Source of the DNA: a virus
Length of the DNA: 45,934 nt
Virus record (IMG/VR): IMGVR_UViG_3300050821_010368
Location: 1 to 45,934 of that record
Direction: 5' to 3' (one strand)
Shown: positions 6,363 through 41,873 of the stretch, piece by piece
Numbering within the stretch: the stretch's first letter is position 1
Layout of the letters: each line of letters starts with the position of its first letter
Made by a program: the position numbers and the translations under genes
The notes under the pieces: generated by a model
The model's database searches: none
What the model was told of the DNA's origin: nothing
The model's input: only the letters and a program-made list of their open reading frames with translations

Positions 6363-6547
6363 GGCAGCAAACTTTGCGTTCTAACTTTGACCCCTCTCCG
6401 ATTCGCCTTTTCCCGCAGCGTCTCCCGCACCGCCGCCGCGTCATACTTCAACTCCCATTCCTGCTTGGGTGGAACGGGCGACCCGCCCGTCGCGTCCGGC
6501 GACCCGCCGGACGCCTCACTGCCCACTTTCTCACTCACGGTTTTCAT
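6359..6547 (-). CDS. Small protein carrying the GGSP element
   Basis: 62 residues. Residues 12-27 are the in-frame repeat peptide SGGSPDATGGSPVPP, so one quarter of the protein is repeat. The rest (WELKYDAAAVRETLREKANRRG) is a charged helix. Its ATG follows directly on the CGCTAAT-type repeat that also ends the upstream gene. ATGA overlap with the next gene. Confidence 0.5.
   Translation of the reverse strand: MKTVSEKVGSEASGGSPDATGGSPVPPKQEWELKYDAAAVRETLREKANRRGVKVRTQSLLP
6468..6514 (-). repeat. Two-hairpin element, copy a
   Basis: Second stem GTCCGGCG/CGCCGGAC. In frame in the 62-residue gene as SGGSPDATGGSPVPP. Confidence 0.85.
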
Positions 6548-6575
6548 TAGCGTTCATCAGCGCAGATTAGCGATT
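6546..6575 (-). repeat. CGCTAAT repeat 1
   Basis: Gives the TAA stop of the 1846-residue gene; the ATG of the 62-residue gene (upstream in transcript) abuts its other side. Confidence 0.8.
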
Positions 6576-9500
6576 GTCAACCGACGCCTTCATCTTCACC
6601 CGCTCCCTCAAGAACGGCACCCCTTCCTCGATATGCTCCCCCATCGACTCCGGCGCCCGTCTCATTCCGCTCCCCGGCTTCGTCGCCGTGTCCTGCCACT
6701 TGGCAATGTTCTGCAACAACTGCGGCACAATCAAACTCTTTCCCAGCTCCCCGAAAAACGCCTGTTGTTCCTGCACATTAAATGCCTTTGCCAGGTCCGT
6801 TATCTCACCCAAAAACGGCGCCTGCGCCGCCATCCCCAGCGCCCCGGCCATCGCCCCGCTCGTCAATCCCCGCGTTGTCGGACTCCGCTTCGCCTGTTTG
6901 CTGTCCTGCACGTGACGTATCGTTGCGCCCAACTGAAACACCATCAGCAGCGGATTGTCCAGCAAAAAACTCGGGATGTTCACCCCGCCAATCTTCAGGC
7001 TGCCCCACCGCGGATTGCGCGGATCCCGCTTCGCGCCTGGCTGCCAAAATCCCCCGGCATATTGCGGCATAAAATACCCCGCCAACATCACCGCCGCCCC
7101 GATCGTTCCCTTCTTCAAATGCCGCATCACCAAATCCGCCTCCTGTGGCGTCAACGCCGCCACCTCCTGCCCAAACGCCTTGCGCAAGCCCCGACTGGCG
7201 AATCGGATGCCCTCCGCCGGCAGTCCCAGCGCATACTCAAACGCCTCCGCCACCACGTTCGTGGGAATCCGCACAATCGGAAACGCCGTGTTCCCGATCA
7301 AATGCCACGTCTTCTCCCAAAACGTTGCGTTCGGACCCTCATGCAGCATCAGCCGCAGCCGCTTCACCAGAAAATTGTTCTGCGAAAATATCGCCCGGTT
7401 CGCGTCCTCATATGCCTCCGCGTTGATCCGCATTTTCACCAGCGGATCCGTGATGTCCACCCCAGCCGCCGCCAGGCTCGCCGACCGCTTGTAATAACTC
7501 CGCTCAAATTCCGCCATCTTCGCCGGCTGTTTCAGCGCCTGATGCAGCCGCCCCAGGAACCCGATCATGTCCACCGGATAATCCCGGTCCCGCCCGAAAG
7601 CCTCGTCAATCGTGCTCTTCCCCGTCCGCACCACCTTGCCCATCTCCGCGACCCCGCGCATCAGGCCGTCCGTGATTGCCCGCACCTCCGCCCGCGTGCT
7701 GAATCCACCCTCCCGCGCCGCCTTGCTCGCCAGCCCCGGAAACATCGCGCTCCAGCCCGCGCCCACCGCCTCCTCCGCCGGCGTGAACGCAATCCGTTCC
7801 GCCGCCGCGGCTGTCAGCTTCGCCAGCGTCAACGGACTGCTCAATAACTGCGCCCTCCGGAACTTCACCCAATACTCCCGCAGCTTCGCCGACATCGGCC
7901 GGTTCGCGCGCTGAAAATTCTCCAGCCCCCGCTGGAATTTATTCTTTGCCGACTCCGCCGCCGCCTTCAATTGCAGCGCCGTGTGATCCAGCTTGATCTC
8001 TTTCTTCTCCCGCTTCTCGAAATCGCCGCGCGCCAGCCGGTCCTCATAATCAGCGGCCCGACGCGCCAGCACCTTCTTGTACGTGTCCAGCGCCGAAGCC
8101 AGTTGCGTCTCCGGATCTGAAATCGGTATCTGAAATTCCCGCTTCGCCTGGTTCACCTTCTGGATCAGCTTGCGCCGCGCCTCCGTCACCTCGCCCCGCT
8201 GCACACCCGTCTTCAACGGCGGCTTGCCGCTCGCCATGTCCTCCAGCTTCGCCACCTCGAGCATCTCGCCCTTTAACCCGCGCAACCGCACCGAAATCGC
8301 GTCCTTGCTCAATTGCTTCCAATCGCCGTAACCCGAAATCGCGTCCATCGTGTCCCGCCGCGTCATGTCCGGCAGCACCTCTTGCATCACCTTGTGCACC
8401 GCATCCAGCAGCGCCTCCCGCTCCGAAATTCCGTCCGCCACAAACGCCCGCGCCACCCGCTGCACATAATACGTCAACTCCTTCTTGATGTCGGGTGGAA
8501 CGGGCAACTTGCCCGTCGCATCCGGCGACCCGCCGGATGCTTTTGTCTTCGCCTCCTTCACCTTCTCCTTCATCACCTCCGCCGCCGCCACCCGCTGCTC
8601 CGCCGGCGTCTGGCTCTTCTTAAACACCGCCTTCACCGCCGCCGGCGCGTCCACCGTGTCCCGGTAAAACAGCGCATTGCTCGCATCCCGCACCTCCTTC
8701 AAATGCGGCCGGATCCATTCCCCCGCCTCCGCCACCATCCGCGCCCCCCACTCCGCCGCGTCCACCAGGTTGTGCGCCAGATGACTCGCCCCAATCTCCG
8801 CCAAATCCGCTAGTATGGTAGGATCCACACCGGCACTAACTCGACCAAGCTTCTCGCGTAAGCGGACTCTCGCGGCATTTGCTCGAGTGTCAAGCTTCGC
8901 AACGATGTCTTTCGCGTACTGGAGGACCCGCGGATGGATGTTTTGCGCCCGCTCCGCCGCTGCGGCTTTGGCTTCCGCAATCTGCCGTTCAATTCCCGCC
9001 TGTCTGATTTTCTCTTCGCTCGCTGCGACGTATTCATCCAATGCCTTTTGTTTATTCGCTATTTCCTGATGCAACCTGGCCACTTCGCTCTCCTCCGCCG
9101 GCGTCAAGGGCGCGCCGCCCTTGCTGGCCCTTGTCGCCAGCCGCATCTCCACCAGGCTGAAATCCGCCGTGTTCCCCGCCATCTTCTGCGCGTTCAAACT
9201 CCGACCCGCCTCGCTCCCCGTCCCGTTCCGGCCCACCGCCTCATCCAGCCGCTGCAAATCATCCTCCACCTTTGCCGCATACAACCTGGCCTCCGCCTGG
9301 TCCCCCTCCCGGCCGTCCTCAAACGCCCTGTTAATTCTGGCAAACGCATTGTTCAACTCCGCCTTGAGCTTGGCCCGATGCCACACCAGACCCGCGTTTT
9401 CCCACGACAACAACGGCCGCGGATGGTTCGTCACCTCGTCAATCAGGTTAGGGATCCATCCCGGCTCCCGGTTCATCTTCGTCAACGCCCGCGCATTGTC

Positions 9501-12107
9501 CTCGTCCCACGATCGCGGATTCGTGTCCGGCATCGGCGCCTTCCCCATCGCCTTCCGGTCCGCGTCAATCGCCGCAAACATGTTGCTCACAAAACTCCCC
9601 GGCTGCGACACCTCGTTATACAGCGCATTCCCCATCCCAATATGGTCCCCCTCCGTCACCGGCCCCACACTCCAATCTGGATCCCCCTCCGTGGGTGGAA
9701 CGGGCGACCCGCCCGTCGCGGCCGGCGACTCGCCGGGCGCTGCCTTGATTCTCTCCTCATCCGCCTTCGTCTGCCCCGGCACAAAATCCGCGTCCTTCGG
9801 CAGGTAACTCCCTTCGTCCACATGAATCACCTCCGTGTTCGCCGGGTCAATCCGTTGCACCCCGAACTTCGGACCGTCCTTCACCGTCAAGCTCGTCAGA
9901 AATCCGTCCGCGTCAAACTCATGCTCCTTCACCGTGAACTCATGCCCCATCACCTCAAACTTGTCCCCGGGCAGCAAATCGCCCACCTTCACCTGCACCG
10001 GCGCCCGCCAGTCCCATTTCGGCCGCTGACCCCGCACCACCACCTTGCCAAACGCATCGGTCTGTTTCGCCTCGACCGCCAGGCCCCGGTTGTCCGCCGC
10101 CGCCTTCTTCTTCGCCGCCGCCCGCGCCGGCCCCGCCTCGTTCATCGCCTCCAAAAATTCCTGCACCTGCTCGCCGGCAACATGCTGCATCACCCCTTCC
10201 CGATGCAGCCCGCTCAACACCTGGTCCGGCGAAAAACCGCCCTCCTTGACGAAGTATTTCCGGGCCAAACTCGTCGGTTTGAAACCCGGAATTACCCGCC
10301 GCGCCTCCGCCAGGTTGATCCGCCGGCCGCCATACTTGTCAATGTAATCCAGCACATCCGGCGGCCGCTCTTCTCCCAAACCTCCAGCTCCCGGTTTCCC
10401 CGCGCCCAGCGCCCCGGACCCCGCGCCTGCGGTTACGCCGGCCGCAGCCCCTTCTTCCGCTTTGCCACCTGCTGCTGAAACCCCTGGTGTCCCGGCCGCC
10501 GTTTCATCCCCGGGCTTCCGTGATACATTTTGGTCCCGCCCGCCTTGCCCTTCATCATCTGCACTCCCTTCGGCTTTTGTGTTTTGAATGACATTGTTAT
10601 CACCCCCTTTCGTTTTCGCTCTTAATTGTTCCATCACCTGCTGCCCCGTCGGCAAATCCTTCACGAAATCCGTCCCCACCAAATCCTCGCTGTGCAACAT
10701 CCCCGGCACCATCGGCTTCTTCCCCGTCAACCGCTCAAACACCGGTGCCGCCTCCTGACGTGTGATGAATTTGCCGTTGTGCAAAAAGCCGCTCTCCTCT
10801 TCGCCCGTCAAAAATTCCCCGTCCTCCTTCGACGCCTCGAGTATCCGAATCCCCGCATGGTCCGCCGACCCGCTGTACACCTGCCCATCCTTCCGCAGCG
10901 CCGGCACCAGCGTCTCCGGCTCCGATTCGCGTGGATTAGCGTTCATTAGCGGTGGCACTGTCTTTGCCCCAAACCCGGTCAAATCTTTCTCCTTCACCTC
11001 TTTCCCCAGCATGTACGCCAGCGCCTCCGCCTTGTCCGGGAACCGCGCGGCCACTTCCTCCGGATCATACCCCTTCTCCACGTCCCCCTCTTTAATCCCA
11101 TACCCCACCGCCCCCAGCATCAGCAAATGCTGCCCGGCATCCCCCAGCGCCCCCCACTTCTCCGCCCGCGTGCTCTTCGGATCCTGAAACACCTTCACCG
11201 TGTTCGTCAGGGTTTCCGGCGCCGACGCCACAATCTGCGCGCCAAACAGCGCCCGCACCACCTTCAACTCGCCCAGCGGCAATGTCGCCAGCATCTCCGG
11301 CGTCTTCAAACTGTTCGCCGTCTTCGCCGCCGACCCCTCGACCCCTTCCATGAACTCCGGCGCGTATTTCTCCGCCAAAACCGTCGTCGTCGGCGCCAGC
11401 CGATGCAAAATGTCCCGGATGCCCTGCTTCGTCACCGCCGGTCCCACCGTCTTGCCCGCCTCGAGCCGATCCACCGGCCCCCACATCCGCGTAATCCGCC
11501 CCATCGTGTTGTAAAAATCAATCGGTATGTTCCCGGCCGTTGCCGCCGCTGTCCCAACCCCGTGCATCGCCTGTCCCAATCCCTCGTTTATCGTGTCCGC
11601 CGCCTGGCCCACCGCCGACGGCGCCGCCTCCGTGTCCGCCGCATCGCGTATGGCCGTCATTCCCGTGCCGGCAATGGCCGCTGCGAGGCTTTTGCGCTCA
11701 TCCGGACTCAACCCCGCCCCTGGTGGCGCAGGCGTCCCCGGCGTCCAGCCGGTAGCACTACGCACCTGTTCGGCCTCACTTGCCCCGCGCCCTGCGCCCC
11801 GCGCCCCCAGCCCCGCCTCCACCGCAAACACCGGATCGTCATGCACATACTCCGGATGCTTCGCCGCCACCGCCGTCGCCAGCGCCGTGTCCGTCATGTC
11901 CCCGTACTCCGGATACTTGTCCCGCAACCCCTGCAACGTCGGACTCCGCTTGTCCATCAGCACCCGGCCCGCCGCCTCCGCCGCGAACGCCTTGTCCTGC
12001 TCGGCATACACCGGATACTTCGCCGCCACCGCCGTCGCCAGCGACTGATCATCCATGTCCGCATACTGCGGATACTTCGACCGTATCGCTGTCAACGTGT
12101 CACTCAT
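6567..12107 (-). CDS. Giant ejection/internal virion-like or polyvalent protein
   Basis: 1846 residues, the largest gene. The N-terminus has three copies of a motif like LxxLRxKYPxYxDMxDxxLATAVAAKHPEY (residues 1-90), seen in phage internal virion and polyvalent proteins. A low-complexity Gly/Ala/Glu stretch lies around 510-590, long charged coiled-coil regions follow (about 960-1130, 1320-1460), and hydrophobic segments lie in the last third. It sits next to two other ejection-like genes, as in podoviruses. Repeats are inserted in frame: GESPAATGGSPVPP near 790, SGGSPDATGKLPVPP near 1190, and LMNANPRE near 385. The TAA stop lies in a CGCTAAT repeat. No catalytic motif recognised. Confidence 0.6.
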   Translation of the reverse strand: MSDTLTAIRSKYPQYADMDDQSLATAVAAKYPVYAEQDKAFAAEAAGRVLMDKRSPTLQGLRDKYPEYGDMTDTALATAVAAKHPEYVHDDPVFAVEAGLGARGAGRGASEAEQVRSATGWTPGTPAPPGAGLSPDERKSLAAAIAGTGMTAIRDAADTEAAPSAVGQAADTINEGLGQAMHGVGTAAATAGNIPIDFYNTMGRITRMWGPVDRLEAGKTVGPAVTKQGIRDILHRLAPTTTVLAEKYAPEFMEGVEGSAAKTANSLKTPEMLATLPLGELKVVRALFGAQIVASAPETLTNTVKVFQDPKSTRAEKWGALGDAGQHLLMLGAVGYGIKEGDVEKGYDPEEVAARFPDKAEALAYMLGKEVKEKDLTGFGAKTVPPLMNANPRESEPETLVPALRKDGQVYSGSADHAGIRILEASKEDGEFLTGEEESGFLHNGKFITRQEAAPVFERLTGKKPMVPGMLHSEDLVGTDFVKDLPTGQQVMEQLRAKTKGGDNNVIQNTKAEGSADDEGQGGRDQNVSRKPGDETAAGTPGVSAAGGKAEEGAAAGVTAGAGSGALGAGKPGAGGLGEERPPDVLDYIDKYGGRRINLAEARRVIPGFKPTSLARKYFVKEGGFSPDQVLSGLHREGVMQHVAGEQVQEFLEAMNEAGPARAAAKKKAAADNRGLAVEAKQTDAFGKVVVRGQRPKWDWRAPVQVKVGDLLPGDKFEVMGHEFTVKEHEFDADGFLTSLTVKDGPKFGVQRIDPANTEVIHVDEGSYLPKDADFVPGQTKADEERIKAAPGESPAATGGSPVPPTEGDPDWSVGPVTEGDHIGMGNALYNEVSQPGSFVSNMFAAIDADRKAMGKAPMPDTNPRSWDEDNARALTKMNREPGWIPNLIDEVTNHPRPLLSWENAGLVWHRAKLKAELNNAFARINRAFEDGREGDQAEARLYAAKVEDDLQRLDEAVGRNGTGSEAGRSLNAQKMAGNTADFSLVEMRLATRASKGGAPLTPAEESEVARLHQEIANKQKALDEYVAASEEKIRQAGIERQIAEAKAAAAERAQNIHPRVLQYAKDIVAKLDTRANAARVRLREKLGRVSAGVDPTILADLAEIGASHLAHNLVDAAEWGARMVAEAGEWIRPHLKEVRDASNALFYRDTVDAPAAVKAVFKKSQTPAEQRVAAAEVMKEKVKEAKTKASGGSPDATGKLPVPPDIKKELTYYVQRVARAFVADGISEREALLDAVHKVMQEVLPDMTRRDTMDAISGYGDWKQLSKDAISVRLRGLKGEMLEVAKLEDMASGKPPLKTGVQRGEVTEARRKLIQKVNQAKREFQIPISDPETQLASALDTYKKVLARRAADYEDRLARGDFEKREKKEIKLDHTALQLKAAAESAKNKFQRGLENFQRANRPMSAKLREYWVKFRRAQLLSSPLTLAKLTAAAAERIAFTPAEEAVGAGWSAMFPGLASKAAREGGFSTRAEVRAITDGLMRGVAEMGKVVRTGKSTIDEAFGRDRDYPVDMIGFLGRLHQALKQPAKMAEFERSYYKRSASLAAAGVDITDPLVKMRINAEAYEDANRAIFSQNNFLVKRLRLMLHEGPNATFWEKTWHLIGNTAFPIVRIPTNVVAEAFEYALGLPAEGIRFASRGLRKAFGQEVAALTPQEADLVMRHLKKGTIGAAVMLAGYFMPQYAGGFWQPGAKRDPRNPRWGSLKIGGVNIPSFLLDNPLLMVFQLGATIRHVQDSKQAKRSPTTRGLTSGAMAGALGMAAQAPFLGEITDLAKAFNVQEQQAFFGELGKSLIVPQLLQNIAKWQDTATKPGSGMRRAPESMGEHIEEGVPFLRERVKMKASVDNR
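8493..8540 (-). repeat. Two-hairpin element, copy b
   Basis: First stem CGGGCA/TGCCCG (both arms changed), second CATCCGGCG/CGCCGGATG. In frame in the 1846-residue gene as SGGSPDATGKLPVPP. Confidence 0.85.
9692..9741 (-). repeat. Two-hairpin element, copy c
   Basis: Second stem CCGGCGA/TCGCCGG. In frame in the 1846-residue gene as GESPAATGGSPVPP. Confidence 0.85.
10935..10953 (-). repeat. CGCTAAT repeat 2 (inside a gene)
   Basis: Short copy read in frame as LMNAN in the 1846-residue protein. Confidence 0.7.
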
Positions 12108-12550
12108 TTACACTTTTCTGCTTCCCCTGCTCAGAATCAGGTCAAGCAACGCAGAGAACATTCCAACGGCGCGTTGCAACTGCGGAAATCCAAATCCCTG
12201 CGAACTCCCGGCAAAATAAATCCCCTGCCTGCCGGTTCTGGCCTGATGCGCCTTCCGCCGGCCCCGACTGCAATACAAGGGTAGTTTTGTGTTGTCTTTC
12301 ATAATTAGCGTTTATCAGCGTTCATTAGCGGTTAAAACTTCTGCCGGACAACAGCATGACTCCCGATGAAAGCAGGCTCCGTGCCACCTTGGAGGGGCCG
12401 CAGGGGATGCGGACTTGAATATGGGGCACCAGGCGCTCCCGCGCCCGTCCGCCATAGCGCATCCGTAGCGCGAAGGCGGATTGCTTCCATCTGCTGTCGC
12501 CGGCAAAATTCATAAATTCCCACCCTCAACCATCAACTCCCACCCCTCAA
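12108..12550. other. Gene-free repeat patchwork
   Basis: About 440 bases between the two ejection-type genes with no convincing gene. It contains a CGCTAAT-type repeat at 12304-12335 and a stretch with GCGCATCCGTAGCGCGAAGGCGGA (12458-12482 region). Several overlapping short frames (12108-12302, 12315-12529) look like repeat-derived translation rather than proteins. Confidence 0.55.
12304..12335 (-). repeat. CGCTAAT repeat 3
   Basis: In the gene-free patchwork at 12108-12550. Confidence 0.8.
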
Positions 12551-13579
12551 CTACTTCCCCCTCAACCCCAACGGATCCTTCGCGTCCACCGCCGCAGGCG
12601 CAGCCGACCCCGCGCTCCCGCTGCGCACCTTCGCCAACTGCTCATTCAATTGCTCGTTCAAATCATCCAGTTTCTTCTGCAACAACGGCTTGTCCTTCAC
12701 GTCCGTCTGCGGGCTGTTCAACTGGCTCGTCACCGCGCTGATGCTCTTCTGGATGATCGTCGCCGCCTCCGTCGGGCTCTTGTCCTTCGTCGGCACCACA
12801 AAGCGCGTTCGTCCCCCGGCCTCGATGATCGTCGTTCCATCGTCCAGCTTCGTCTCCTTCACCGGCGCCTGATACGTCCGGTCCGGCACCACCCGGAAAG
12901 ACCCCTTCCCGTCCGGCGCATAAATATACCCTTCCGGCGCCGGCCCCATGTTCGCCGAACTCGTCCGGTTCACCAGCTGCATCAGCAACGACTGCCCCTC
13001 CGGCGTCTGCACCGCCGCCGGATTCGCCTGTATCCCCGCCAGCAACCGCGCCGCAAAATCATTCTGCCCGGGTGGAACGGGCGACCCGCCCGTCGCGGCC
13101 GGCGACCCGCCGGGCGCACCTGATAATATCCCCGCCCCTGCCGCCACACCCACCCCGGGTGGAACGGGCGACCCGCCCGTCGCAGCCGGCGACCCGCCGG
13201 CTGCCCCCCCCACCGCCCTTGTCAACGCGTCCAGCGCCGCCTGTTTCGTCTTCGCCTGCTGCGTGTCCAAAATCTGCGCCTGCATCCGCGCCTGCTGCTC
13301 CTTTTGCGCCTGCGCCACGATGCTGCCCTTCATCACCGAAATCTGCTGCGCCGCGCTCATGTTGGCGAACTCATCCGCCGAATACCCTGTCACCTTCGGC
13401 GCATCATCCCCCAGGCTCTTGTAATACTTCGCCGCCGCGTCCGATTGATCCTTCAACTGCTTCTGCTGATCCGCCCGTTTCGACAGCGCGTCCCCCAGCA
13501 TCATCCCCAAATTAGACAATCCCCGCCCCAGCGATTCCCCCGCCGTGCTCACCACCCCAGGATTGTAACTCAGCGCCAT
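12551..13579 (-). CDS. Ejection/internal virion-like protein
   Basis: 342 residues. Starts MALSYNPGVVSTAGESLGRG just after a CGCTAAT repeat with no clear ribosome site. Residues 30-125 are Gln/Ala/Lys-rich helix (KRADQQKQLKDQSDAAAKYY, QEQQARMQAQILDTQQAK), and the C-terminus is another coiled coil (LLQKKLDDLNEQLNEQLAKV). It carries two in-frame GGSPAATGGSPVPP elements about 25 residues apart. Composition and position between the giant protein and the Gly-rich 292-residue protein fit a podovirus ejection protein. Function inferred from context. Confidence 0.55.
   Translation of the reverse strand: MALSYNPGVVSTAGESLGRGLSNLGMMLGDALSKRADQQKQLKDQSDAAAKYYKSLGDDAPKVTGYSADEFANMSAAQQISVMKGSIVAQAQKEQQARMQAQILDTQQAKTKQAALDALTRAVGGAAGGSPAATGGSPVPPGVGVAAGAGILSGAPGGSPAATGGSPVPPGQNDFAARLLAGIQANPAAVQTPEGQSLLMQLVNRTSSANMGPAPEGYIYAPDGKGSFRVVPDRTYQAPVKETKLDDGTTIIEAGGRTRFVVPTKDKSPTEAATIIQKSISAVTSQLNSPQTDVKDKPLLQKKLDDLNEQLNEQLAKVRSGSAGSAAPAAVDAKDPLGLRGK
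13069..13118 (-). repeat. Two-hairpin element, copy d
   Basis: Consensus stems. In frame in the 342-residue gene as GGSPAATGGSPVPP. Confidence 0.85.
13156..13204 (-). repeat. Two-hairpin element, copy e
   Basis: Second stem GCAGCCGGCG/CGCCGGCTGC, differing from copy d on both arms. Same gene and frame as copy d. Confidence 0.85.
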
Positions 13580-13581: not shown

Positions 13582-13611
13582 ATTAGCGTCTATCAGCGTT
13601 CATCAGCGGTT
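13582..13611 (-). repeat. CGCTAAT repeat 4
   Basis: Gives the TAA stop of the 52-residue gene; the next start (13579) follows two bases on. Confidence 0.8.
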
Positions 13612-14092: not shown

Positions 14093-14140
14093 AATATTCT
14101 CACTTTCCCAAATCAGCAATCCGCAATCGCCAATCCGAAA

Positions 14141-21016: not shown

Positions 21017-21511
21017 AAAAGTTCCCGTCACAAACCACGCCGGGTGGTTTGCGTATAGATTGGTCATGCGCCACACCGCCGGTCCCGCCCACCAGAAGTC
21101 AGTGACGGCGGTCCAGTGCTTCATGTCCTCGCTGCCCCAGATGTGGTAATGCGTGTTGGTCGTGTTCGTGAATGCAAACGTCACCACCATCCCGTTGACG
21201 GCCGGCGTCGGATTCGTCACCGTAAAACACCGCACCTTCCCCGCCATGTTCGTCAAACACTCCGTCTGTCCGTTTGTCGGCCCCAGCCCGCTCCTCCTCA
21301 GCACCAGCATCACCGCCGGCGGCGGCATCGGTGGCGCGGGTGGCGCAGCCGTCCCGGCTGTGCTGACATTGTTTGTGGCGCATCCGCTCGCCATCAGCAC
21401 CAGCCCCACAAACACCAAAATGATGAGGACACAGAAAATCAGCCAGTCGAGCCAGTCCCGGCTGGTCGTTTCCATGTCCCCGTCATCATGATTGTCGTCG
21501 TACGGATGCAC
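21014..21511 (-). CDS. Lipoprotein / membrane-anchored protein
   Basis: 165 residues with a GTG start at 21511, or 153 from ATG at 21475. The hydrophobic stretch WLIFCVLIILVFVGLVLMASGC ends in a lipobox (MASGC). A linker from the CAGCCG hairpin repeat at 21338-21369 follows (STAGTAAPPAP), then a beta-rich domain (THYHIWGSEDMKHWTAV). TAA stop lies in a CGCTAAT repeat. In the membrane-protein cluster, possibly lysis-related. Confidence 0.55.
   Translation of the reverse strand: MHPYDDNHDDGDMETTSRDWLDWLIFCVLIILVFVGLVLMASGCATNNVSTAGTAAPPAPPMPPPAVMLVLRRSGLGPTNGQTECLTNMAGKVRCFTVTNPTPAVNGMVVTFAFTNTTNTHYHIWGSEDMKHWTAVTDFWWAGPAVWRMTNLYANHPAWFVTGTF
21338..21369 (-). repeat. CAGCCG-hairpin repeat, copy 1 (in lipoprotein gene)
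   Basis: GGGTGGCG, then hairpin CAGCCG-TCC-CGGCTG (21346-21360), then TGCTGACAT. Read in frame as part of the Ala/Pro linker of the lipoprotein. Confidence 0.7.
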
Positions 21512-25848: not shown

Positions 25849-25899
25849 GGGGTGGCTCGGGCGACCCGCCCGATCTGTCCGGCGACCCGCCGGACAGTC
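25849..25899 (-). repeat. Two-hairpin element, copy f (downstream of capsid gene)
   Basis: Intergenic, 12 bases past the capsid stop. First stem TCGGGCG/CGCCCGA and second stem CTGTCCGGCG/CGCCGGACAG both carry base-pair-preserving changes against other copies. May cap the capsid mRNA. Confidence 0.8.
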
Positions 25900-25910: not shown

Positions 25911-27050
25911 CTAACCCGTGTAATAGAACATCCCGAAATACATCGGGTTGTACACCACCAGGCTCAGCAGGCATTTCACGTCGAACGTGTCGCCGCCGCC
26001 GTTGTCCGGCAGGGGCATTTCAAACATCGGCACGCCCCAGCGTTTTGCAAACATCCCCTTCTTCAGGATGTACGCCGCCTTCGGCGCCTCCAGGAACACC
26101 CGCGTCGACCGGTTCCCGCTCGATGCCACCGCGCCCCCCGTGCTGTTCGTCGTCGTGGTGCCGATGAACCGGCTTTCCACCACCGCAAACCGCCCGAAGT
26201 CCGTGCGAATGACATCAATGCTGATCCCCAGCTCGCTGTCCTGGATCTGCTGCTGCAGCATCCGCACCTGCGTCGCCGCGATGCCGCCGCCCGTCACCGT
26301 CGCCGTCTGCGGGTCCGTCAGGAACGTGATCTGCTCGCGCAAATCCAGCCCTGTCAGGAACACATAATCCCCGGCCGCCGCCGCGCTCTTCCGCAACGCC
26401 TTGCTCATGCTCCGCATCGCGCTCAAGTTGAAACTCGTCGCCATGCTCGCCCCGGTCGTGAACGCCCCCGTCGCCGCAAACTGGATGTCCGTCGGCGCCC
26501 CGTACGTGAACCCGCTCGGGCTCGCATACGAATTGGCGTTGTCGATCATCTTGCGCATCCCGCTCATCAGGCTGCCCGTTGCCACGCCGGAATCCAGATA
26601 CGCCACCTGGTCCACCGATGCCAGCGCGCACTCCGCGTCCTGCTTCAGCAGCACATACGCGTCCGCCCGGCCGCGGCTGATGATGTTGCCCTTGCCCACG
26701 CCGGCAATGTTCGGGATCCGCTGCGCTATCCAGCCCGCGCCGTACGCCCGGCGGAAACCCTGCCCCACGTTGCCCATCTTCCGCATGTTCGTCGTCACGT
26801 CGCGCACCGGCGAATTGCCGCTCGCCACGTCCTCGCCGTCCGCCACGCCCAGCGCGCCCAACGGCACCGGAATGGTGTCCACGTTCCACGCAAACTCCGT
26901 GGCCGTCAGATCCATTTCCCTGCCCGCCATCGAATACATGGGCGTCAACTCGGGCTGCACCCGGTCAATCGTGTCCATGTAATCTTCAATTGTGATGTTG
27001 TCGTACAGCGCATTCGGCTGCCGCAACCCTGGTTCCAATGTCAATGCCAT
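25911..27050 (-). CDS. Major capsid protein (DUF5309/SU10-like HK97 fold)
   Basis: 379 residues from ATG at 27050 with GGAAAGAAA upstream; the longer frame reads through an intergenic repeat. The N-terminal pattern (IDRVQPELTPMYSMAGREMDLTATEFAWNVDTIPVP) and C-terminus (KAAYILKKGMFAKRWGVPMFEMP) fit the DUF5309/SU10-type major capsid proteins, HK97 fold. Preceded by the scaffold. Flanked on both sides by two-hairpin elements, which may protect or punctuate its mRNA. Confidence 0.8.
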   Translation of the reverse strand: MALTLEPGLRQPNALYDNITIEDYMDTIDRVQPELTPMYSMAGREMDLTATEFAWNVDTIPVPLGALGVADGEDVASGNSPVRDVTTNMRKMGNVGQGFRRAYGAGWIAQRIPNIAGVGKGNIISRGRADAYVLLKQDAECALASVDQVAYLDSGVATGSLMSGMRKMIDNANSYASPSGFTYGAPTDIQFAATGAFTTGASMATSFNLSAMRSMSKALRKSAAAAGDYVFLTGLDLREQITFLTDPQTATVTGGGIAATQVRMLQQQIQDSELGISIDVIRTDFGRFAVVESRFIGTTTTNSTGGAVASSGNRSTRVFLEAPKAAYILKKGMFAKRWGVPMFEMPLPDNGGGDTFDVKCLLSLVVYNPMYFGMFYYTG

Positions 27051-27084
27051 GTTATTTCTTTCCTTCCGGGCCGGCCAGGTTCTG

Positions 27085-27133
27085 GGGTGGCACGGGCGAC
27101 CCGCCCGTCGTTTCCGGCAACTTGCCGGGAACT
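27085..27133 (-). repeat. Two-hairpin element, copy g (upstream of capsid gene)
   Basis: Intergenic between scaffold and capsid. Second stem CCGGCA/TGCCGG keeps pairing although both arms differ from the consensus CCGGCG/CGCCGG. Confidence 0.8.
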
Positions 27134-27155
27134 TCCCAACCAAAATCCGCCGTCC

Positions 27156-29923: not shown

Positions 29924-29954
29924 AATCAGCGTCAATCAGCGCAGATTAGCGGTT
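29924..29954 (-). repeat. CGCTAAT repeat 7
   Basis: Gives the TAA stop of the 121-residue gene just before the cytosine methyltransferase start. Confidence 0.75.
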
Positions 29955-30863: not shown

Positions 30864-30896
30864 ATTAGCGTCCATCAGCGTTCATTAGCGGTTAAC
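30864..30896 (-). repeat. CGCTAAT repeat 8
   Basis: Gives the TAA stop of the GT4-like gene; the methyltransferase ATG follows directly. Confidence 0.85.
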
Positions 30897-32112
30897 TCTT
30901 CTTCTCCCCCTCGCGCCCCGCGACCCGCGCCACAAACCCGTTCACTATCTCCCACCGCACCTCATTCAGTTTCTTCCCCGCCACGTTTTCCTTGATCCAC
31001 GCCCGGCTCTCCTCCACGTCACTGTGAATCGCCCGCGCCCCGTCCATCATTCGCGTCCCGCCCTTCGCAAACGCCATCGCCTGGCCCAGCGCGAAATCAT
31101 TGATCGCCCGCTGCAAACAATTCTTGAAACTGTCCGGCCCATCATACACTTCCCCCTCGCGCCCCGCGCCCCGCGCCCCGCGCCCTCCATCGTAATTCCT
31201 CACCCCCGGCCTCAACCACTCCTCCCACGCCGGCGCCAGCGTGATCGCCCCCGCGCAACTCGCCTCGATCCACGCCAGGTTGCTCCGACACCTATTAAAC
31301 CCGTTCTCCTTCAGCGGCACAATCTGCAGCCACGGCCGCAAATGACACAACATCCCCATGTAAAGCATCGGGTCCGCCCCTGTGTCATGCTCCAGATTCC
31401 CCGACGGTATCGCCTCGCTCACCTGCCACGGCGGCTCGCCCAGGAACGCCCATTTCCACGCCGCATTCTTAGGGTCCCGCGCCACCGCCTCAATCGCCGG
31501 CAACACCTCCAGCAAATCCGCGTCATGATTCCCCCAGCCCCGCCACACAATCCGCTTCGTCCGCGGCCCCTCCGTAAACGGCCACTGACATCCATTCGGC
31601 AGCACCCTGATCTTCCCCTCCCCGGGTGGAACGGGCGACCCGCCCGTCAACTTCGGCGACTCGCCGAAGTTTCCCTCCGGCGTCCTTCTCCGCTTGATCT
31701 CCTCCGTGCTCACCGTCACCACGTCCGCCAAGTTCACCAGCGTGTCCAGCACCGGCCGGATCTCCTCCGCGTTGAACGCCCCGCAGTTCGGATTATAAAT
31801 CGGCACACAACACAGGTCATCATCCCAGTCCACCCACACCGGCAGACCCATCATCTTCGCCATCCGCGCCAGGTTGCCATGATGCCGCGTGTACGGCGCG
31901 CTCATGAACAATGCGTCCAACCCCGCCAGCCAGCTCCAACCCATGCTGCGCTCGCCCTGACCCGTTGAATGCGGCAGCACCAGTTCCAGCCGCCGATCCT
32001 CCCGCGCCATCGCCGACAGCGGCCCCAGCGCCCGCATCAAACTCACCCCCCCGTTCGCATCCGGCGTCACCACCCCCAGCCGCATCCGCACCACCCATTC
32101 AGGTAATTTCAT
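30892..32112 (-). CDS. GT4-like glycosyltransferase
   Basis: 406 residues. GT-B style: N-terminal RLGVVTPDANGGVSLMRALGPL; VWVDWDDDL at 92-100; C-terminal donor-site pattern (GFNRCRSNLAWIEASCAGAITLAPAWEEWLRPG). Carries two repeats in frame: GESPKLTGGSPVPP at 150-163 and a GRGARGAGREGE stretch near 310. TAA stop lies in a CGCTAAT repeat; ATGA with the ASCH gene upstream. One of three glycosyltransferases here, so glycosylation of virion, DNA or host surface is likely. Confidence 0.7.
   Translation of the reverse strand: MKLPEWVVRMRLGVVTPDANGGVSLMRALGPLSAMAREDRRLELVLPHSTGQGERSMGWSWLAGLDALFMSAPYTRHHGNLARMAKMMGLPVWVDWDDDLCCVPIYNPNCGAFNAEEIRPVLDTLVNLADVVTVSTEEIKRRRTPEGNFGESPKLTGGSPVPPGEGKIRVLPNGCQWPFTEGPRTKRIVWRGWGNHDADLLEVLPAIEAVARDPKNAAWKWAFLGEPPWQVSEAIPSGNLEHDTGADPMLYMGMLCHLRPWLQIVPLKENGFNRCRSNLAWIEASCAGAITLAPAWEEWLRPGVRNYDGGRGARGAGREGEVYDGPDSFKNCLQRAINDFALGQAMAFAKGGTRMMDGARAIHSDVEESRAWIKENVAGKKLNEVRWEIVNGFVARVAGREGEKKS
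31622..31672 (-). repeat. Two-hairpin element, copy h
   Basis: Second stem AACTTCGGCGA/TCGCCGAAGTT. In frame in the GT4-like gene as GESPKLTGGSPVPP. Confidence 0.85.
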
Positions 32113-33305: not shown

Positions 33306-34234
33306 CTTAATTTCCGGGCAGCCTCTGCGGGTGGCGCAGCCGTCTCGGCTGTGCTGACATTTTCTGGTCCCGGCCCCTTCTCCGGCGTCAAATTCAAACA
33401 ATGCCGGAACACCGCCAGTTCGCCCTCTTCCTCGCGCCCCGCGCCCCGCGCCCCGCCGCCTATTCGGACCCGCCCCTCTCCATCAAAAAAACAGTCTTGG
33501 GGCAGTCCGAAGTGCCCATGCACATGAATCGTCCGCGGCAGCAGCCGGTGCTTCAGCCACCGCCCGATGCAATAACACAGACACCACTGTATCGCCGCGT
33601 AATGTTCAAACACACTCTCCACCACCGGCAACAACGCCCGCGCCATGTCATGCAACCGCCGATACGTCTCCACCCGGCACACCAGCACCCCGCAATTCCA
33701 GACCGGCAGCTCGCGCCAGCCGGGAAACATTTGTTCAAAAATCCACGAATCAAAAATTGCATGGTCTTTCCGGTTTACTGAACTGGCCTCCAACAGTCTG
33801 GCCTCCTCCAAAAGCGTGTCCCCCTCCTTCCCGTTCACCCCCAGCCACACCTCGTCCTTGCCCGTAAAATGGAAGTCATACAACTCGTCGTACGTAAACG
33901 GCCGCTGCATCACCATGTCTGCGTCCGTGAAGATCACCATGTCCCGCGGACTCCCCGCATTCAACGCATCCAGAAACGCCCCGTGCTGCAAACTCTTGCA
34001 CCGGTTCCCCGGCACCGGCACATGCAGCCCGTGCAGGATCCGGTTTGTTCCGGCGTGCTCATAGCGCCACAGGGCATTCTTGAATCCGCAAAGAAAAACA
34101 CGCGGCTGAAATTCAATCGCCGGACCGGCCGCGCCCTTCATCTGGACATTGACCGGGACATGCCGCATCACGCTCGCCACGTAACCATCCAGCCACGGAT
34201 ACCCCTCGGTGGCGCCGGTACATAAGTGAATCAT
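33302..34234 (-). CDS. GT-A type glycosyltransferase-like protein
   Basis: 310 residues from ATG at 34234 with GGAGGTGG upstream. DxD motif in IFTDADMVMQRPF (Asp104-Asp106), and a following acceptor-side region (WELPVWNCGVLVCRVETYRRL). The fold looks like family 8/92-type nucleotide-sugar transferases. Near the C-terminus an ARGAG-type repeat (GGGARGAGREEEGE) and a CAGCCG hairpin repeat are read in frame, so the last 40 residues are repeat-derived. Confidence 0.65.
   Translation of the reverse strand: MIHLCTGATEGYPWLDGYVASVMRHVPVNVQMKGAAGPAIEFQPRVFLCGFKNALWRYEHAGTNRILHGLHVPVPGNRCKSLQHGAFLDALNAGSPRDMVIFTDADMVMQRPFTYDELYDFHFTGKDEVWLGVNGKEGDTLLEEARLLEASSVNRKDHAIFDSWIFEQMFPGWRELPVWNCGVLVCRVETYRRLHDMARALLPVVESVFEHYAAIQWCLCYCIGRWLKHRLLPRTIHVHGHFGLPQDCFFDGEGRVRIGGGARGAGREEEGELAVFRHCLNLTPEKGPGPENVSTAETAAPPAEAARKLR
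33329..33360 (-). repeat. CAGCCG-hairpin repeat, copy 3 (in glycosyltransferase 3' end)
   Basis: Hairpin CAGCCG-TCT-CGGCTG at 33337-33351 with the family flanks. Encodes part of the C-terminal Ala/Pro tail (VSTAETAAPPAEA) of the gene at 33302-34234. Confidence 0.7.
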
Positions 34235-34552: not shown

Positions 34553-34584
34553 ATTAGCGTTTATTAGCGTCCATTAGCGGTTAA
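34553..34584 (-). repeat. CGCTAAT repeat 9
   Basis: Gives the TAA stop of the DHH gene. Confidence 0.85.
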
Positions 34585-35524: not shown

Positions 35525-35556
35525 ATTAGCGTTTATTAGCGTCCATTAGCGGTTAA
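35525..35556 (-). repeat. CGCTAAT repeat 10
   Basis: Gives the TAA stop of the portal gene. Confidence 0.85.
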
Positions 35557-37877
35557 ACTCCCTGTCCCATCGGCTTCACCCCGATCCTCCCAATCTGCTT
35601 GTTCTGCTGCTGGCTTACGCTCTGCTGCAAATTCTTCGCGTACTTCTCCATCAGCAACGCCTTCCGCGGATTATGCTGCGGACTTTGCGGATGCAACTCC
35701 GCCATCCAGTCCGGATTGTTGCTCACCAGTTGCTGCAAAAATTGCAGCTTCATCTGCGCCGTCGGGTCGTTCTCGGAATACACCGCCTCGTTCCCCTGCA
35801 TGATCTGGCTCGCCTCCCCGCGCACGTCCTTGAACACCGCCTGCGCCGCCCCCGCCTTGTTCGTCATGATCTCCGGCCCGATGCTCGGGTCCAAATATCC
35901 CACCAGAATGTCCACCAGCTTGGAATGATCAATCTCCCCGCCGCTGTCAATCTGTATCAACTCCACGATATGCTTGAACAGCGTGTCCACCCAGTCCTCG
36001 TCCAGGCCCTTCGCGTCGAAATGCAACTGCAGCCGTTGCTTCAACAGCTTCTCCATCGTCAACAACGGCGGATGCCCGATGATTTCCGCCAGTTCCGCCG
36101 GCTTCAAATGCTGATACGTCAGCACCGCCAGCTGCCAGTAACACCGGCCCCACACCGCCAGCCAGCGGTTGATTTGTTTCTGCCGCAGTTCGGCCGCCAT
36201 CGCCGGCGGATTCGCCGTGCTCACAATCCCCCAGGCCGCGTCCCGCTCCTGCTTGATCTGGTTGATCAATTCAAACGCCACCTGCGGATTCCCCGGCGGC
36301 GGCGGAAACCAGCTCCAATCGTTCTGCCCCACAAAATTAAACACCGCCAGCGGCCCGAAATCCGGCGGCAGCTTGCTCGCCCGGCTCCCCATCTTCTTCA
36401 ACGGCGGAGTAATGCTCAACTCCGTGTACGCAAACAGCCCGTCCCGCTGCGTCTTCCCCTCCGATTGCTGCGTGCTCAACCGCTCCGCCACCCCGCGCGA
36501 ATCGCTCGGCCGCTTCCCTGTCACCTCCAGGCGATAGTCCAGCAGCGCGTCATGCCCGTGCGCAAAATCCAGCAGAAAATGCGTGCCATACAACGGCCCG
36601 TCCGTGAACGCCAGCTTGCCCTCCGGCGACGGCGCCCCCTCAACTCCATCGTTCTTTCCGGCACCGCCCCGCGCCCCGCGCCCCGCGCCCTGCTCATTTT
36701 CCGTCCTCGTTCCCACCGCCACCAGGTTCGGACTAAACACCGTGCACCACACCCCTTCCACCCCGTCCTTCACCTGATGCACAAACGCCGTCACAATCTC
36801 GATCATCCGCATGTTCTCGTCCAGTTCCGTCTCCTCCGTGATCGTCAAGTCACTCGCAATCCCCGCCGTTCCCTTCACCGCGTCCACAAACTTTTCATCC
36901 CACGGATTGTCCGGGTCCTCGTTCGCCGCCGTGATCAAATCCGCCTCGTTGTAATACCGCCGCAAAAACCAGCACCGTTTCCTCGATAGATAAGTCATCT
37001 CCACCGGCGTCACCGCGTCCACCCCCGGCACCAGCACCTCCAGTTCCGGCCGGTTCTCCACCACCTCCGGCACCTGGAACTCCGCCTCCCCGTTCTCCCG
37101 CAAATCGTCCACCAGCTGCCTCGCCTGGGCATCCGTCAAATGTGGATCCCCTGTGTCCTCGTCCTGCAAAAACCGGTGCACCAGCGCCACCGCCGCCTCC
37201 ATCATGTCAGACCGCCCATTTTCCTCTTCCGTCCCCGCGCCCCGCGCCCCGCGCCCCGCGCCACTTCCCATGATTATGTTCACCGCATTGCTCGCCACGT
37301 CTGTCGCTGGAAACCTGGCCGCATACATCTGCACCTCCTCCATCGTCACCGTCTTGTTCACCCACGCCTTCCGCTTCACCCAGCTCGGATGCAGATAACA
37401 AAATCCCAGCGTCAACCCCACCTGCGCCAGAAATTCCACGTTGTCCGCCAGGTTGTCCGCCAGCACCCCGCCCGTGATCCATGTCACCACCGCCCGCAGC
37501 TCCGCCGCCTCCGCCAGCGTCAGCTTGCTCGTCGATACCGGCGCCGGATTCACCCGCGCGCCCTTGTGCGCCACCAGCAGCATCGCCACCAGCGTGTTGA
37601 TCGTGTCGTCCGCCAGCGGAAAACGCGTGTCCGGCCCGCCCTCATACGGCCGGCACGGGCGGTCATGCCCCAAATTCTTGCTGTAGATCCGGCCGTCCCA
37701 GCTTTGGCCGCGCCACCGCGTGTAGCGCGTGTCCTCCGCCACGATCAACCGTGCGCAGCCGTTGATGAATCCCACCCCCTGCGTCCACGCCTTCTCGTAC
37801 TCCTGCTGCAACGCCGGCACATCCGGCTCGTCCGCCGCCGCCGTCATCGGATCCCGATTGCTGGTTTCCATGCTCAT
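35553..37877 (-). CDS. Portal protein
   Basis: 774 residues from ATG at 37877 (GGAAGGAAATTT upstream, ATGA with the previous gene). The size, helical wing-and-stem regions and motifs (EMTYLSRKRCWFLRRYYNEADLI, QIKQERDAAWGIVSTANPPAMAAELRQKQI, a Gln-rich C-terminus) fit large podovirus-type portal proteins. Two ARGAG repeats are inserted in frame (GAGRGARGAGTEEEN near 215; GAGRGARGGAGKN near 405). Lies on the path from TerL to scaffold/capsid. Ends with TAA in a CGCTAAT repeat. Confidence 0.7.
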   Translation of the reverse strand: MSMETSNRDPMTAAADEPDVPALQQEYEKAWTQGVGFINGCARLIVAEDTRYTRWRGQSWDGRIYSKNLGHDRPCRPYEGGPDTRFPLADDTINTLVAMLLVAHKGARVNPAPVSTSKLTLAEAAELRAVVTWITGGVLADNLADNVEFLAQVGLTLGFCYLHPSWVKRKAWVNKTVTMEEVQMYAARFPATDVASNAVNIIMGSGAGRGARGAGTEEENGRSDMMEAAVALVHRFLQDEDTGDPHLTDAQARQLVDDLRENGEAEFQVPEVVENRPELEVLVPGVDAVTPVEMTYLSRKRCWFLRRYYNEADLITAANEDPDNPWDEKFVDAVKGTAGIASDLTITEETELDENMRMIEIVTAFVHQVKDGVEGVWCTVFSPNLVAVGTRTENEQGAGRGARGGAGKNDGVEGAPSPEGKLAFTDGPLYGTHFLLDFAHGHDALLDYRLEVTGKRPSDSRGVAERLSTQQSEGKTQRDGLFAYTELSITPPLKKMGSRASKLPPDFGPLAVFNFVGQNDWSWFPPPPGNPQVAFELINQIKQERDAAWGIVSTANPPAMAAELRQKQINRWLAVWGRCYWQLAVLTYQHLKPAELAEIIGHPPLLTMEKLLKQRLQLHFDAKGLDEDWVDTLFKHIVELIQIDSGGEIDHSKLVDILVGYLDPSIGPEIMTNKAGAAQAVFKDVRGEASQIMQGNEAVYSENDPTAQMKLQFLQQLVSNNPDWMAELHPQSPQHNPRKALLMEKYAKNLQQSVSQQQNKQIGRIGVKPMGQGV
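37231..37263 (-). repeat. ARGAG-type GC repeat (representative copy)
   Basis: GCGCCCC units read as GRGARGAG in the portal. Other in-gene copies lie near 11779-11810, 15040-15062, 31156-31185, 33432-33455, 36664-36691, 38410-38442. Confidence 0.7.
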
Positions 37878-38233
37878 AAATTTCCTTCCGGTTGACAATC
37901 AAACATTCCCGCCGCCCGCATCTCTTCCTTCTCCCGCCAGTATCGCTGCCGGTCCACCCGGTTTAACATGCTGAATTGAGTCACATTACTGTTCTTGTCT
38001 CGGATGTTTGACCACAACCCGGCCAGCCCAACATGCAAATCCACATGACATTTCCCATCTTCTCCACGGGTAAATATTTGCCAGAACGCCCGCATTCTCC
38101 GCCGGGACACCACCGCCGGATGCCGTGTAATCGTATTATAAATCTGATGCTGCGCGAATGTCACCGTAGACACATGCACCTTCGGCTCTGCGTCTTTGCG
38201 CCTCTGCGTCTCTGCGTTAAAATTAGCGTTCAT
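37874..38233 (-). CDS. Unknown protein starting in repeats
   Basis: 119 residues if it begins at the ATG at 38233. That ATG and the first 18 residues (MNANFNAETQRRKDAEPK) are read entirely from two adjoining intergenic repeats. A GTG at 38179 is the other plausible start. The body (VVSRRRMRAFWQIFTRGEDGKCHVDLHVGLAGLW, RQRYWREKEEMRAAG) is basic; no family recognised. Coupled to the portal gene (ATGA). Confidence 0.5.
   Translation of the reverse strand: MNANFNAETQRRKDAEPKVHVSTVTFAQHQIYNTITRHPAVVSRRRMRAFWQIFTRGEDGKCHVDLHVGLAGLWSNIRDKNSNVTQFSMLNRVDRQRYWREKEEMRAAGMFDCQPEGNL
38184..38220 (-). repeat. AETQRRKDAE-type repeat
   Basis: On the minus strand AACGCAGAGACGCAGAGGCG, then CAAAGACGCAGAGCC, a tandem-like GACGCAGAG element adjoining a CGCTAAT repeat. 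I recall this as a common dispersed element in several bacterial genomes. Confidence 0.7.
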
Positions 38234-38253
38234 CAGCGCAGATTAGCGGTTAA
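38222..38253 (-). repeat. CGCTAAT repeat 11
   Basis: Gives the likely ATG (38233) of the 119-residue gene; adjoins the AETQRRKDAE repeat. Confidence 0.85.
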
Positions 38254-38256
38254 AAT

Positions 38257-39959: not shown

Positions 39960-39995
39960 GACTTTGTTCCTTTGGTTGTTTGGTTTACTTCAAAT

Positions 39996-41873
39996 TCACC
40001 CCATCCTGCCCCATCCTCCCCCGCCCACCACCGCCGGCACGTTCGGATCCTGATACGGCGTCTCTTCGCAAAACAAATACCGCGGCGCGTCCACCCCGTC
40101 CTTGAACGGACTGTCCTGCTTCCCATCCCAGTTCAGCCAGCAGCGCACGATGTTCTGGCACCGGTCCGAAATATACAGCCGAGGCTGGTTCTCCGGCGTC
40201 AACGGCCTTTGCGTGTCGTACGCCAGCTTCGTCACCACCATCTCCAGGTCCATGTCCACCGTCTGCCGGATCTTCGCCGGATAAAACGTCATCGCCTCCT
40301 CCTCCGGCTGCTCGCCGTCCGCGCCGAACAACTCGAACAAATTCACCCCGCCGTCCGCGTGCGCCGCCGCCGTCGCAAACGCCCGCGGATCCCCAAACCG
40401 TTTCTCCGCCTCGATCCCGTGCTCCCGTTCCCGCTCTCGTATGTGCCGTTTGTACCAATTCGACCCCATCCCCGCAAACACTTTCTGGCCGTCCCCCGGC
40501 GCGCCGTCCGCCGCCACCCATTCCCCCTCCGTGATCCGAGGGCTTTCATCAAACAAATATTCGTTCCCGTCCGCGTCCACCCCCTTCCACGCCAGGAAAT
40601 AACTCCGCGCCGTCGCCGGGTCCGCCGCCATGTAAGTCGTCAGCCGCCCCTCCTTCAACAGTTTCTCGATCCGTTCATGCGGAATCACGTGCACGTTCGG
40701 ATCAAAATTCGCAATCCGGCACCCCGCCAGCTTCTCCACCCACCCGAACAACCGCACCCGCACCTGCCACTTCGCCCGCCCCACGCACTTGTCGAACAAC
40801 GCCGGCATCTTCGGATTCCACCGCCCGCCCGTCGGCAGAAATGGATTCCAATGGCACCACGTAAAAATCACCCCCTGCGCAAAATCCAGCGGCTGCATGA
40901 TGTACGGCATATGCCCCGCCGGACACCCCTTCACCTGCACCTCATCCAGGCTCAACTCCGGAAACGTCAACGCCGGATTGACCGCTCCTCTCCCTTTCCC
41001 GGGTGGCACGGGCGACCCGCCCGTCATTTCCGGCGACCCGCCGGAAACATTCCCCTCTTCCGGTTTTGAATTTTGAACTTTGAGTTTTGAATCGTCCGCC
41101 AGCCAGTCCCACTGCATCGGCAGCGTCTTGATGATCCGCGCCCCGTCCAAAACACTCGCGCATGTCGCATCATACCCGTGCACCGCCGTGAACGTGAAAA
41201 ATATCTTGCCCCCCACCTTCCCCACGCGAAACCGCAGCGTGTCAATCAGCGGCAGCGGCCCGCCCTCGTCCAGCCACACCAGGTCATACGACGGCCCCTC
41301 AAACGAAATCGGGTCCCGCAGATACTGCGCCACCGTCTTGAACCAGCACTGGCTCCGGTTCGGCCACACCAGCGTGTTCTCCGTGAACCCGCCCGCCTGG
41401 CTCCAGTTGATTTTCGTCACGCTCCCCCGCCGCTTCCGCACCTGCGTGTTCCAGTCCCGGCACGCCTTCGGCAGATACGTGTAAACCGCCGCCTGCTGAT
41501 ACGTCACGCTGGATTCATCATTCGTCGCCACACACAACACCTTCGCCCCGCGCTTCTCCCCCATCACCTTGTTCACCAGCCGGCCGCCGTACTCCGTCTT
41601 CCCGCTCCCGTTCGCCCCCAGGTTGAACGTCTCCGACTTCTGCCCGATCATGTGCCACAAATCCGGCCAGTGCGGCAGCTCGAAACCGTGCCGCAACGGA
41701 TCCACCGCCGCCAGCTTCAACCGCCGTTCGTGCCCTTCCACATACTGCGCCAGCGCGCCCTCGCCGTCCGGTTCCTCCATCAACGCCCGGATCTGCGCGT
41801 CATCCAACGGCGGCCATTCCCGGTCCCAAATCGGATGCGGCGTGAACAACGGCGTTGTTTCCTCTGTTTTCAA
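39996..41873 (-). CDS. terL: Terminase large subunit
   Basis: 625 residues. ATPase: Walker A GANGSGKT at 86-93, Walker B DLVWLDEG at 197-204. RNase H-like nuclease: first acidic residue in YMAADPATA (about 414-422), with further Asp/Glu downstream (YLFDES). Packages DNA into the prohead. Between the ATPase and nuclease domains a 30-residue insert (about 261-295) is made of two dispersed repeats: KLKVQNSK-type, then SGGSPEMTGGSPVPPG. It must be tolerated by the motor. The small terminase is not identified. Confidence 0.9.
   Translation of the reverse strand: MKTEETTPLFTPHPIWDREWPPLDDAQIRALMEEPDGEGALAQYVEGHERRLKLAAVDPLRHGFELPHWPDLWHMIGQKSETFNLGANGSGKTEYGGRLVNKVMGEKRGAKVLCVATNDESSVTYQQAAVYTYLPKACRDWNTQVRKRRGSVTKINWSQAGGFTENTLVWPNRSQCWFKTVAQYLRDPISFEGPSYDLVWLDEGGPLPLIDTLRFRVGKVGGKIFFTFTAVHGYDATCASVLDGARIIKTLPMQWDWLADDSKLKVQNSKPEEGNVSGGSPEMTGGSPVPPGKGRGAVNPALTFPELSLDEVQVKGCPAGHMPYIMQPLDFAQGVIFTWCHWNPFLPTGGRWNPKMPALFDKCVGRAKWQVRVRLFGWVEKLAGCRIANFDPNVHVIPHERIEKLLKEGRLTTYMAADPATARSYFLAWKGVDADGNEYLFDESPRITEGEWVAADGAPGDGQKVFAGMGSNWYKRHIREREREHGIEAEKRFGDPRAFATAAAHADGGVNLFELFGADGEQPEEEAMTFYPAKIRQTVDMDLEMVVTKLAYDTQRPLTPENQPRLYISDRCQNIVRCWLNWDGKQDSPFKDGVDAPRYLFCEETPYQDPNVPAVVGGGGWGRMG
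40998..41050 (-). repeat. Two-hairpin element, copy i
   Basis: Second stem TTTCCGGCG/CGCCGGAAA. In frame in terL as SGGSPEMTGGSPVPP. Preceded (transcript sense) by a KLKVQNSK-type repeat at about 41068-41092. Confidence 0.85.

Follow-up and report, generated by a model that had tools for sequence, protein, structure and literature searches.

We describe a 48-bp repeat, made of two consecutive hairpins behind a GTGG tag, that occurs nine times in a viral record of 45,934 nucleotides (the whole stretch analysed, hereafter the window) and is read through in frame in five phage genes, including that of the packaging motor. As judged from sequence comparison, the unit is a dispersed repeat family of Verrucomicrobiota, not a phage invention. 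We consider it likely that single units of this GTRG-tagged family entered the phage in trans through a host enzyme, and that their reading frame was selected afterwards.

Searched with a degenerate first-hairpin pattern, the window gave nine matches, always on the plus strand, against a shuffled expectation of 0.01, with the GGTGG motif starting at 6468, 8494, 9694, 13071, 13158, 25851, 27086, 31625 and 41002. The nine tandem two-hairpin copies of roughly 50 bp that a first-pass annotation had read by eye were all found where it placed them, at 48 bp each (Table 1). The layout is GGGTGG-N, a 7-bp stem, an ACY loop and the return arm, then a single N, a 10-bp stem, a second ACY loop and its return arm. 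Counted from GGTGG, the units align without gaps over 47 columns, and since a further G precedes the motif in all nine, the natural unit is 48 bp, or 16 codons.

Table 1. Two-hairpin units, their carrier genes and related features of the window
Feature	Position	Strand	Remarks
Unit a, 48-bp double hairpin	6467..6514	+	inside 62-aa ORF (ASGGSPDATGGSPVPP); 74.2 bits
Unit b	8493..8540	+	inside 1846-aa gene; stem 1 CGGGCA/TGCCCG; 69.6 bits
Unit c	9693..9740	+	inside 1846-aa gene; 69.1 bits
Unit d	13070..13117	+	inside 342-aa gene; 66.6 bits
Unit e	13157..13204	+	inside 342-aa gene; 72.4 bits
Unit f	25850..25897	+	intergenic, downstream of capsid gene; stem 1 TCGGGCG/CGCCCGA; 70.7 bits
Unit g	27085..27132	+	upstream of likely capsid start codon; 68.4 bits
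Unit h	31624..31671	+	inside glycosyltransferase gene; missing in five viral relatives; 69.4 bits
Unit i	41001..41048	+	inside terL; missing in relative L056; 68.7 bits
terL	39996..41873	-	carries unit i; 39% identical to L056, 26% to phage C75C1
Glycosyltransferase gene	30892..32112	-	carries unit h; phrog_7162
1846-aa gene	6567..12107	-	carries units b and c
342-aa gene	12551..13579	-	carries units d and e
62-aa ORF (putative gene)	6359..6547	-	carries unit a
SU10-type major capsid protein ORF (SU10_MCP match)	25911..27143	-	flanked by units f and g; true start likely inside ORF, near 27050
Single-hairpin GTGG-tagged relative (GGTGGCGCAGCCGTCCCGGCTGTGCTGACA)	21339..21368	+	codes VSTAGTAAPP in frame; 19.2 bits
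Single-hairpin GTGG-tagged relative	33330..33359	+	near end of second glycosyltransferase-like gene; 14.9 bits

The stems differ between copies and remain paired: 98.0% of cells were paired in the nine units, compared with 87.3% after shuffling, 8 of 17 pairs (16 cells) had changed on both sides, and none of 500 shuffles reached the observed values. Sliding one arm by a single column reduced pairing to 34–43%. The earlier claim of stems that vary while staying paired thus passes a formal covariation test, with the reservation that stem 2 contains one G-G mismatch each in the copies at 9694 and 13071, and that the copy at 41002 has A-C at the stem 2 base. A covariance model, the check proposed at the outset, was built from the nine units together with 14 other copies and recovered exactly these nine in the window at 67–74 bits, the next match, at 19 bits, being a single-hairpin relative; as the nine were part of the input they match by construction, and the informative part is the gap to the next match. 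Hairpins predicted from either strand are stable, at about -25 to -35 kcal/mol, and the G-T and A-C cells, compared as a strand test, were both rare (5 and 1 in A2, 18 and 11 in A3), with no clear bias.

Searches with the model also retrieved copies from Verrucomicrobiota genomes, and a scan with an exact pattern, covering 84,980 genomes of bacteria and archaea, returned 53 loci. Where a true second hairpin was present, the source was mostly Verrucomicrobiota (Limisphaerales and Pedosphaera-like members among them), some few records being labelled only 'bacterium'. Actinobacterial matches of the first pattern had no second hairpin and were dismissed as fortuitous. Bacterial copies have the 47-column architecture and spacing of the window units with different stems, for example CCGGTCGGCG/CGCCGACCGG, CTCGGCGGCA/TGCCGCCGAG and ACAGGCC/GGCCTGT. 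Model searches counted at least 150 copies in genome G004 (JACQWK01), at least 93 in G001 (PLQC01), and 47, 24, 16 and 13 in others; among 195 genomes drawn across the phylum, 192 had none at E<=1e-4, with 31 candidates scored per genome. In 51 copies from G004, 96.4% of cells were paired and the covariation score was 0.555 versus 0.167 shuffled, equalling the preceding set in strength, in an alignment that was fitted to the model and leans towards structure. Most copies in G001 and G004 are paired in inverted orientation, their GGTAG or GGTGG tags facing outwards; with a spacer of 4 or about 61 bp, the paired unit measures 98 or about 155 bp. Some pairs in G004 lie within longer inverted repeats (AGAGCGTGTTTTGAAAATGGGTGG...). 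The phage host is probably itself a member of Verrucomicrobiota. Host assignment through an AGCG repeat was abandoned, its exact pattern occurring in 0 of 388 genomes, and the other repeat families of the window are nearly absent from the genomes sampled.

The covariation could, in principle, have arisen by intrastrand template-switch repair of imperfect palindromes, with neither a selected function nor recognition of the hairpin by a transposase. That neither strand is clearly favoured is what a DNA-level process would be expected to produce, but such repair leaves unexplained the ACY loops, the loop-to-loop spacing of 21 nt and the GTRG tag, all of which are constant across genera, and we regard this account as somewhat unlikely. 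It nevertheless qualifies the initial description of a structure-selected mobile linker repeat: dispersal, conserved pairing and an expendable linker stand, whereas the arms could be matched by template switching without selection for structure.

Seven units lie in five minus-strand genes, namely the 62-aa ORF, the 1846-aa and 342-aa genes with two each, the glycosyltransferase-like gene and terL; at least six genes had been proposed. The remaining two (25851 and 27086) stand on either side of the capsid gene, as had been noted. The earlier observation that the intragenic units all use one frame holds without exception: seven of seven are in codon phase 0 and in a common orientation, coding for xGGSPxxTGGSPVPP or close variants of it, GESP and GKLP being examples. 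In seven of the nine units all five alternative frames are open, so the choice of frame was not forced by stop codons, and the probability of one frame out of three for seven units, given their orientation, is about 0.001. The view that the unit codes for an expendable, harmless-looking linker is supported. Neither the 1846-aa protein nor the glycosyltransferase had a relative in the phage collection searched, and the 342-aa gene and 62-aa ORF gave no useful match among the loci compared.

For two carrier genes, relatives without the insert were available. The alignment with the L056 TerL, from a viral contig, spans the entire protein and has a gap where unit i lies, and five viral glycosyltransferases do without about the 16 residues coded by unit h. 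The gene carrying unit i is identified as terL by homology to phage C75C1 (tblastn, E 7e-31), whose protein matches PHROG_2 (terminase large subunit) at 1.3e-15, and by synteny with the portal gene; direct comparison with PHROGs and Pfam, and with PDB sequences, gave no match. Motifs and the alignment place unit i between the predicted ATPase and nuclease domains. An AlphaFold model of TerL from two sequences had a pLDDT of 32 and was discarded as a basis for placing the insert. A second TerL insert, SKLKVQNSK (about 41049–41090), adjoins unit i and is also missing in L056. Among the relatives compared, which are 26–39% identical, no case was seen of a recent insertion matched by an empty site of identical sequence. 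With covariation formally significant and the inserts missing from TerL and glycosyltransferase relatives, neither of the outcomes that the first-pass annotation had listed as contrary to its reading (covariation failing a formal test, or linkers conserved at the same sites in unrelated homologues) was observed.

The absence of the insert from these relatives also bears on the idea that the units are functional protein linkers, or regulatory RNA hairpins in the mRNAs. Hairpin stability on both strands and the two units around the capsid gene would suit such roles, but the peptide is common to unrelated genes, the unit occurs at many places in bacterial genomes, and a search of Rfam with the two-hairpin unit matched no family, making this explanation very improbable.

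Beyond the window, the pattern for both hairpins was found in 14 stretches of viral contigs, one contig (G205) having seven copies in 33 kb. An in-frame copy follows the Portal_Mu domain of a Mu-type portal protein (PF06074, 1.1e-35) in L152, another lies near the N-terminus of a transposase-like protein in L154 and two near-identical contigs, and further putative in-frame copies occur in long unassigned ORFs, picked by length, of L155, L157 and L151. Such viral in-frame copies are read as antisense xGESPxxTGGSPVPP or sense GGTGDPPVxxGDPP, not in the Arg-rich frames, and in L002 two short ORFs end in the antisense reading. Hence, the repeat described earlier as residing in a phage is indeed present in phage genes but is not special to this phage, being a bacterial family found in several. 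That the record is a metagenomic viral contig raises the question of an assembly artefact or a chimera with bacterial DNA; the copies, however, are in phase inside long open phage genes, the TerL-portal relatives are syntenic, and the pattern is repeated in other viral contigs, so that an artefact is extremely improbable.

Two further observations concern these contigs. In L151 (5317–5417), an inverted pair of units is read through in frame in a 256-aa viral ORF (GSTGNLPVLPGNLPGNPTAPGKLPGGTGGSPVPP), and the stretch L002:5873–7873, from a repeat-rich virus, contains a ParB-like gene, recognized by eye, and other in-frame dispersed repeats (DRLKPGLQP, NTKHQTPNTRETPKVQTPNS).

The window harbors several other repeat classes. 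GC-rich heptad repeats of CGCGCCC units at 36655–36690 and 37221–37262, in the portal gene, and also at 11771, 30904, 31150 and 33425, code for GARGARGAG-like inserts in several genes and constitute a second in-frame dispersed repeat class of this phage; both portal inserts are gaps in L056, and one is also a gap in phage C75C1. Twelve copies of ACCGCTAATnnACGCTGATnnACGCTAAT lie on the coding strand (6546–6574, 10925–10953, 12304–12332, 13582–13610, 20986–21014, 22512–22540, 29925–29953, 30864–30892, 34553–34581, 35525–35553, 38222–38250 and 45673–45701), many of them at junctions between genes, to which they contribute a stop or start codon (as in MNANGKTN and MNANFNAE), and one inside the 1846-aa gene; exact matches were found in 0 of 388 verrucomicrobial genomes. 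Single-hairpin repeats (GGTGGCGCAGCCGTCCCGGCTGTGCTGACA and variants) at 21339, 21725, 27346 and 33330 have the orientation of the nine units and code for VSTAGTAAPP-like peptides. AT-rich AATCCGAAATC repeats between or at the ends of genes (4645–4676, 14110–14141, 17327–17373, 20111–20157 and 24808–24850) have sparse copies in some verrucomicrobial genomes. Both contig ends (1–162 and 45757–45933) lie in one 9-nt GGCGGCGTA-type array, which would fit a circular or permuted genome interrupted within a tandem repeat.

All nine window units share a single orientation (two-sided p 0.004), and on the GGTGG strand their flanks are 81% pyrimidine compared with 59% overall, a value reached by none of 20,000 random draws. 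Other viral copies have a weaker pyrimidine excess (0.61 versus 0.51, p 0.004), and the outer flanks of bacterial copies have none. One orientation and pyrimidine-rich flanks fit insertion by an HUH enzyme into single-stranded DNA, with the purine-rich, charged codons of the linkers as a confounder. Consistent with the earlier statement that a RAYT-type transposase is lacking, no Y1/RAYT transposase was found in the window, which may be an incomplete record; Y1 transposases were present in all 11 genomes tested. Mobilization in trans is plausible, but the two-hairpin unit flanked none of 20 RAYT loci scanned in repeat-bearing genomes; the sole unit within 1 kb, about 500 bp from a RAYT in L109, was judged incidental. 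Two Y1 transposase genes of G004 (L110, L111) are flanked by single GTAG hairpins (CCGTGGC..GCCACGG, CCCACAGC..GCTGTGGG) and thus represent ordinary REPtrons, present alongside the double-hairpin family in one genome. A TnpA-REP is able to cut GTGG substrates, with lower efficiency at CA and also at CC (PMC8266576).

According to the mechanism we favor, units would be copied into phage DNA while it is single-stranded by a host enzyme recognizing the GGTRG tag and hairpin, the leading candidate being a TnpA-REP-like HUH transposase, and insertions translated as a Gly/Ser/Pro linker would then be retained by selection. Trans-acting transposition is ahead of its main rival, recombination with template switching. 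Under the latter, the phage would have acquired units from its host by recombination, and template switching or gene conversion would have multiplied them in its genome, with no transposase acting on phage DNA, as might be suggested by the lack of a Y1-kind transposase in the window and by the spread of several unrelated repeat classes in one phage, which would point to a general process instead of one enzyme. Gene conversion from one source, however, would not give units with sharp ends, no common flanking sequence and outer stems that mostly differ, as observed here, and we consider this route unlikely.

Among known repeat systems, GTAG-type REPs come closest. In the verrucomicrobial species Opitutus terrae, Di Nocera et al. 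(PMC3733652) found GTGG to be the tag of most GTAG-20 repeats, and they describe the species as having the most intragenic GTAG REPs. Like our family, these REPs have a GTRG tag 5' of a stem-loop rich in GC, stems whose variants are complementary, many copies per genome (at least 150 in G004 and 93 in G001 for our family), head-to-head dimers and intragenic copies, and they occur in the same phylum. The tag is unpaired at one end of the unit and reads GTGG in all nine window copies, with both GTAG and GTGG in bacterial ones. Unlike GTAG REPs, which are single stem-loops of 20–40 bp, in the aligned copies each tag is followed by two hairpins within a constant 47–48 bp, the window copies are single and lie in phage genes, and linkage to RAYTs was not found among the 20 loci. 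Because the single hairpin and the RAYT linkage are both lacking, we do not file the two-hairpin family as a GTAG REP, although it works like one; no published family matching the unit was found, the GTAG-20 consensus being compared by description and not letter by letter. The bacterial inverted pairs, with tags outside and spacers of 4 or about 61 bp, resemble REPINs and BIMEs (PMC3116915, PMC3733652), except that each arm is a double hairpin, that the inverted repeat of some copies continues into the flanks in a MITE-like manner, and that all nine window copies are unpaired singles. Tag and hairpin on one strand also recall IS200/IS605-type and TnpA-REP HUH transposition, a likeness of tag, orientation and flanks that is known here from sequence, the enzyme being a candidate only. 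The comparison originally drawn with Rickettsia palindromic elements (reviewed in PMC10969869), also palindromic repeats in frame in unrelated genes, holds for behavior, by analogy; those elements are about 100–150 bp and come from Rickettsia, whereas the unit here is 48 bp, has no Rfam match and belongs to phage and Verrucomicrobiota, and its closest kind is GTAG/GTGG REPs and their inverted dimers (REPINs), of which Verrucomicrobiota have an abundance.

What is new, then, is the presence of two hairpins per tag and the phage setting; GTAG/GTGG REPs in Verrucomicrobiota and intragenic copies were already known. REPs and REPINs are viewed as chromosome-bound repeats, inherited mainly vertically with their RAYT. 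A more far-reaching interpretation, in which phage genomes are targets of active transposition, via single-stranded DNA, by a REP-like element with two hairpins that leaves codon-aligned linkers in essential structural genes and is carried by phages from one member of Verrucomicrobiota to another, making REPs something other than strictly vertical chromosomal passengers, is offered as a tentative possibility. Unit density is about one per 5 kb in two viral genomes and one per tens of kb in bacteria, where the counts are lower bounds. These findings indicate that viral genes, packaging motor included, have acquired a dispersed repeat of bacteria whose kind is roughly known. Should the units have arrived while the phage was replicating, the linkers would mark sites where packaging proteins tolerate insertion, and phages would provide a small, countable system for studying REP mobility and its requirement for single-stranded DNA.
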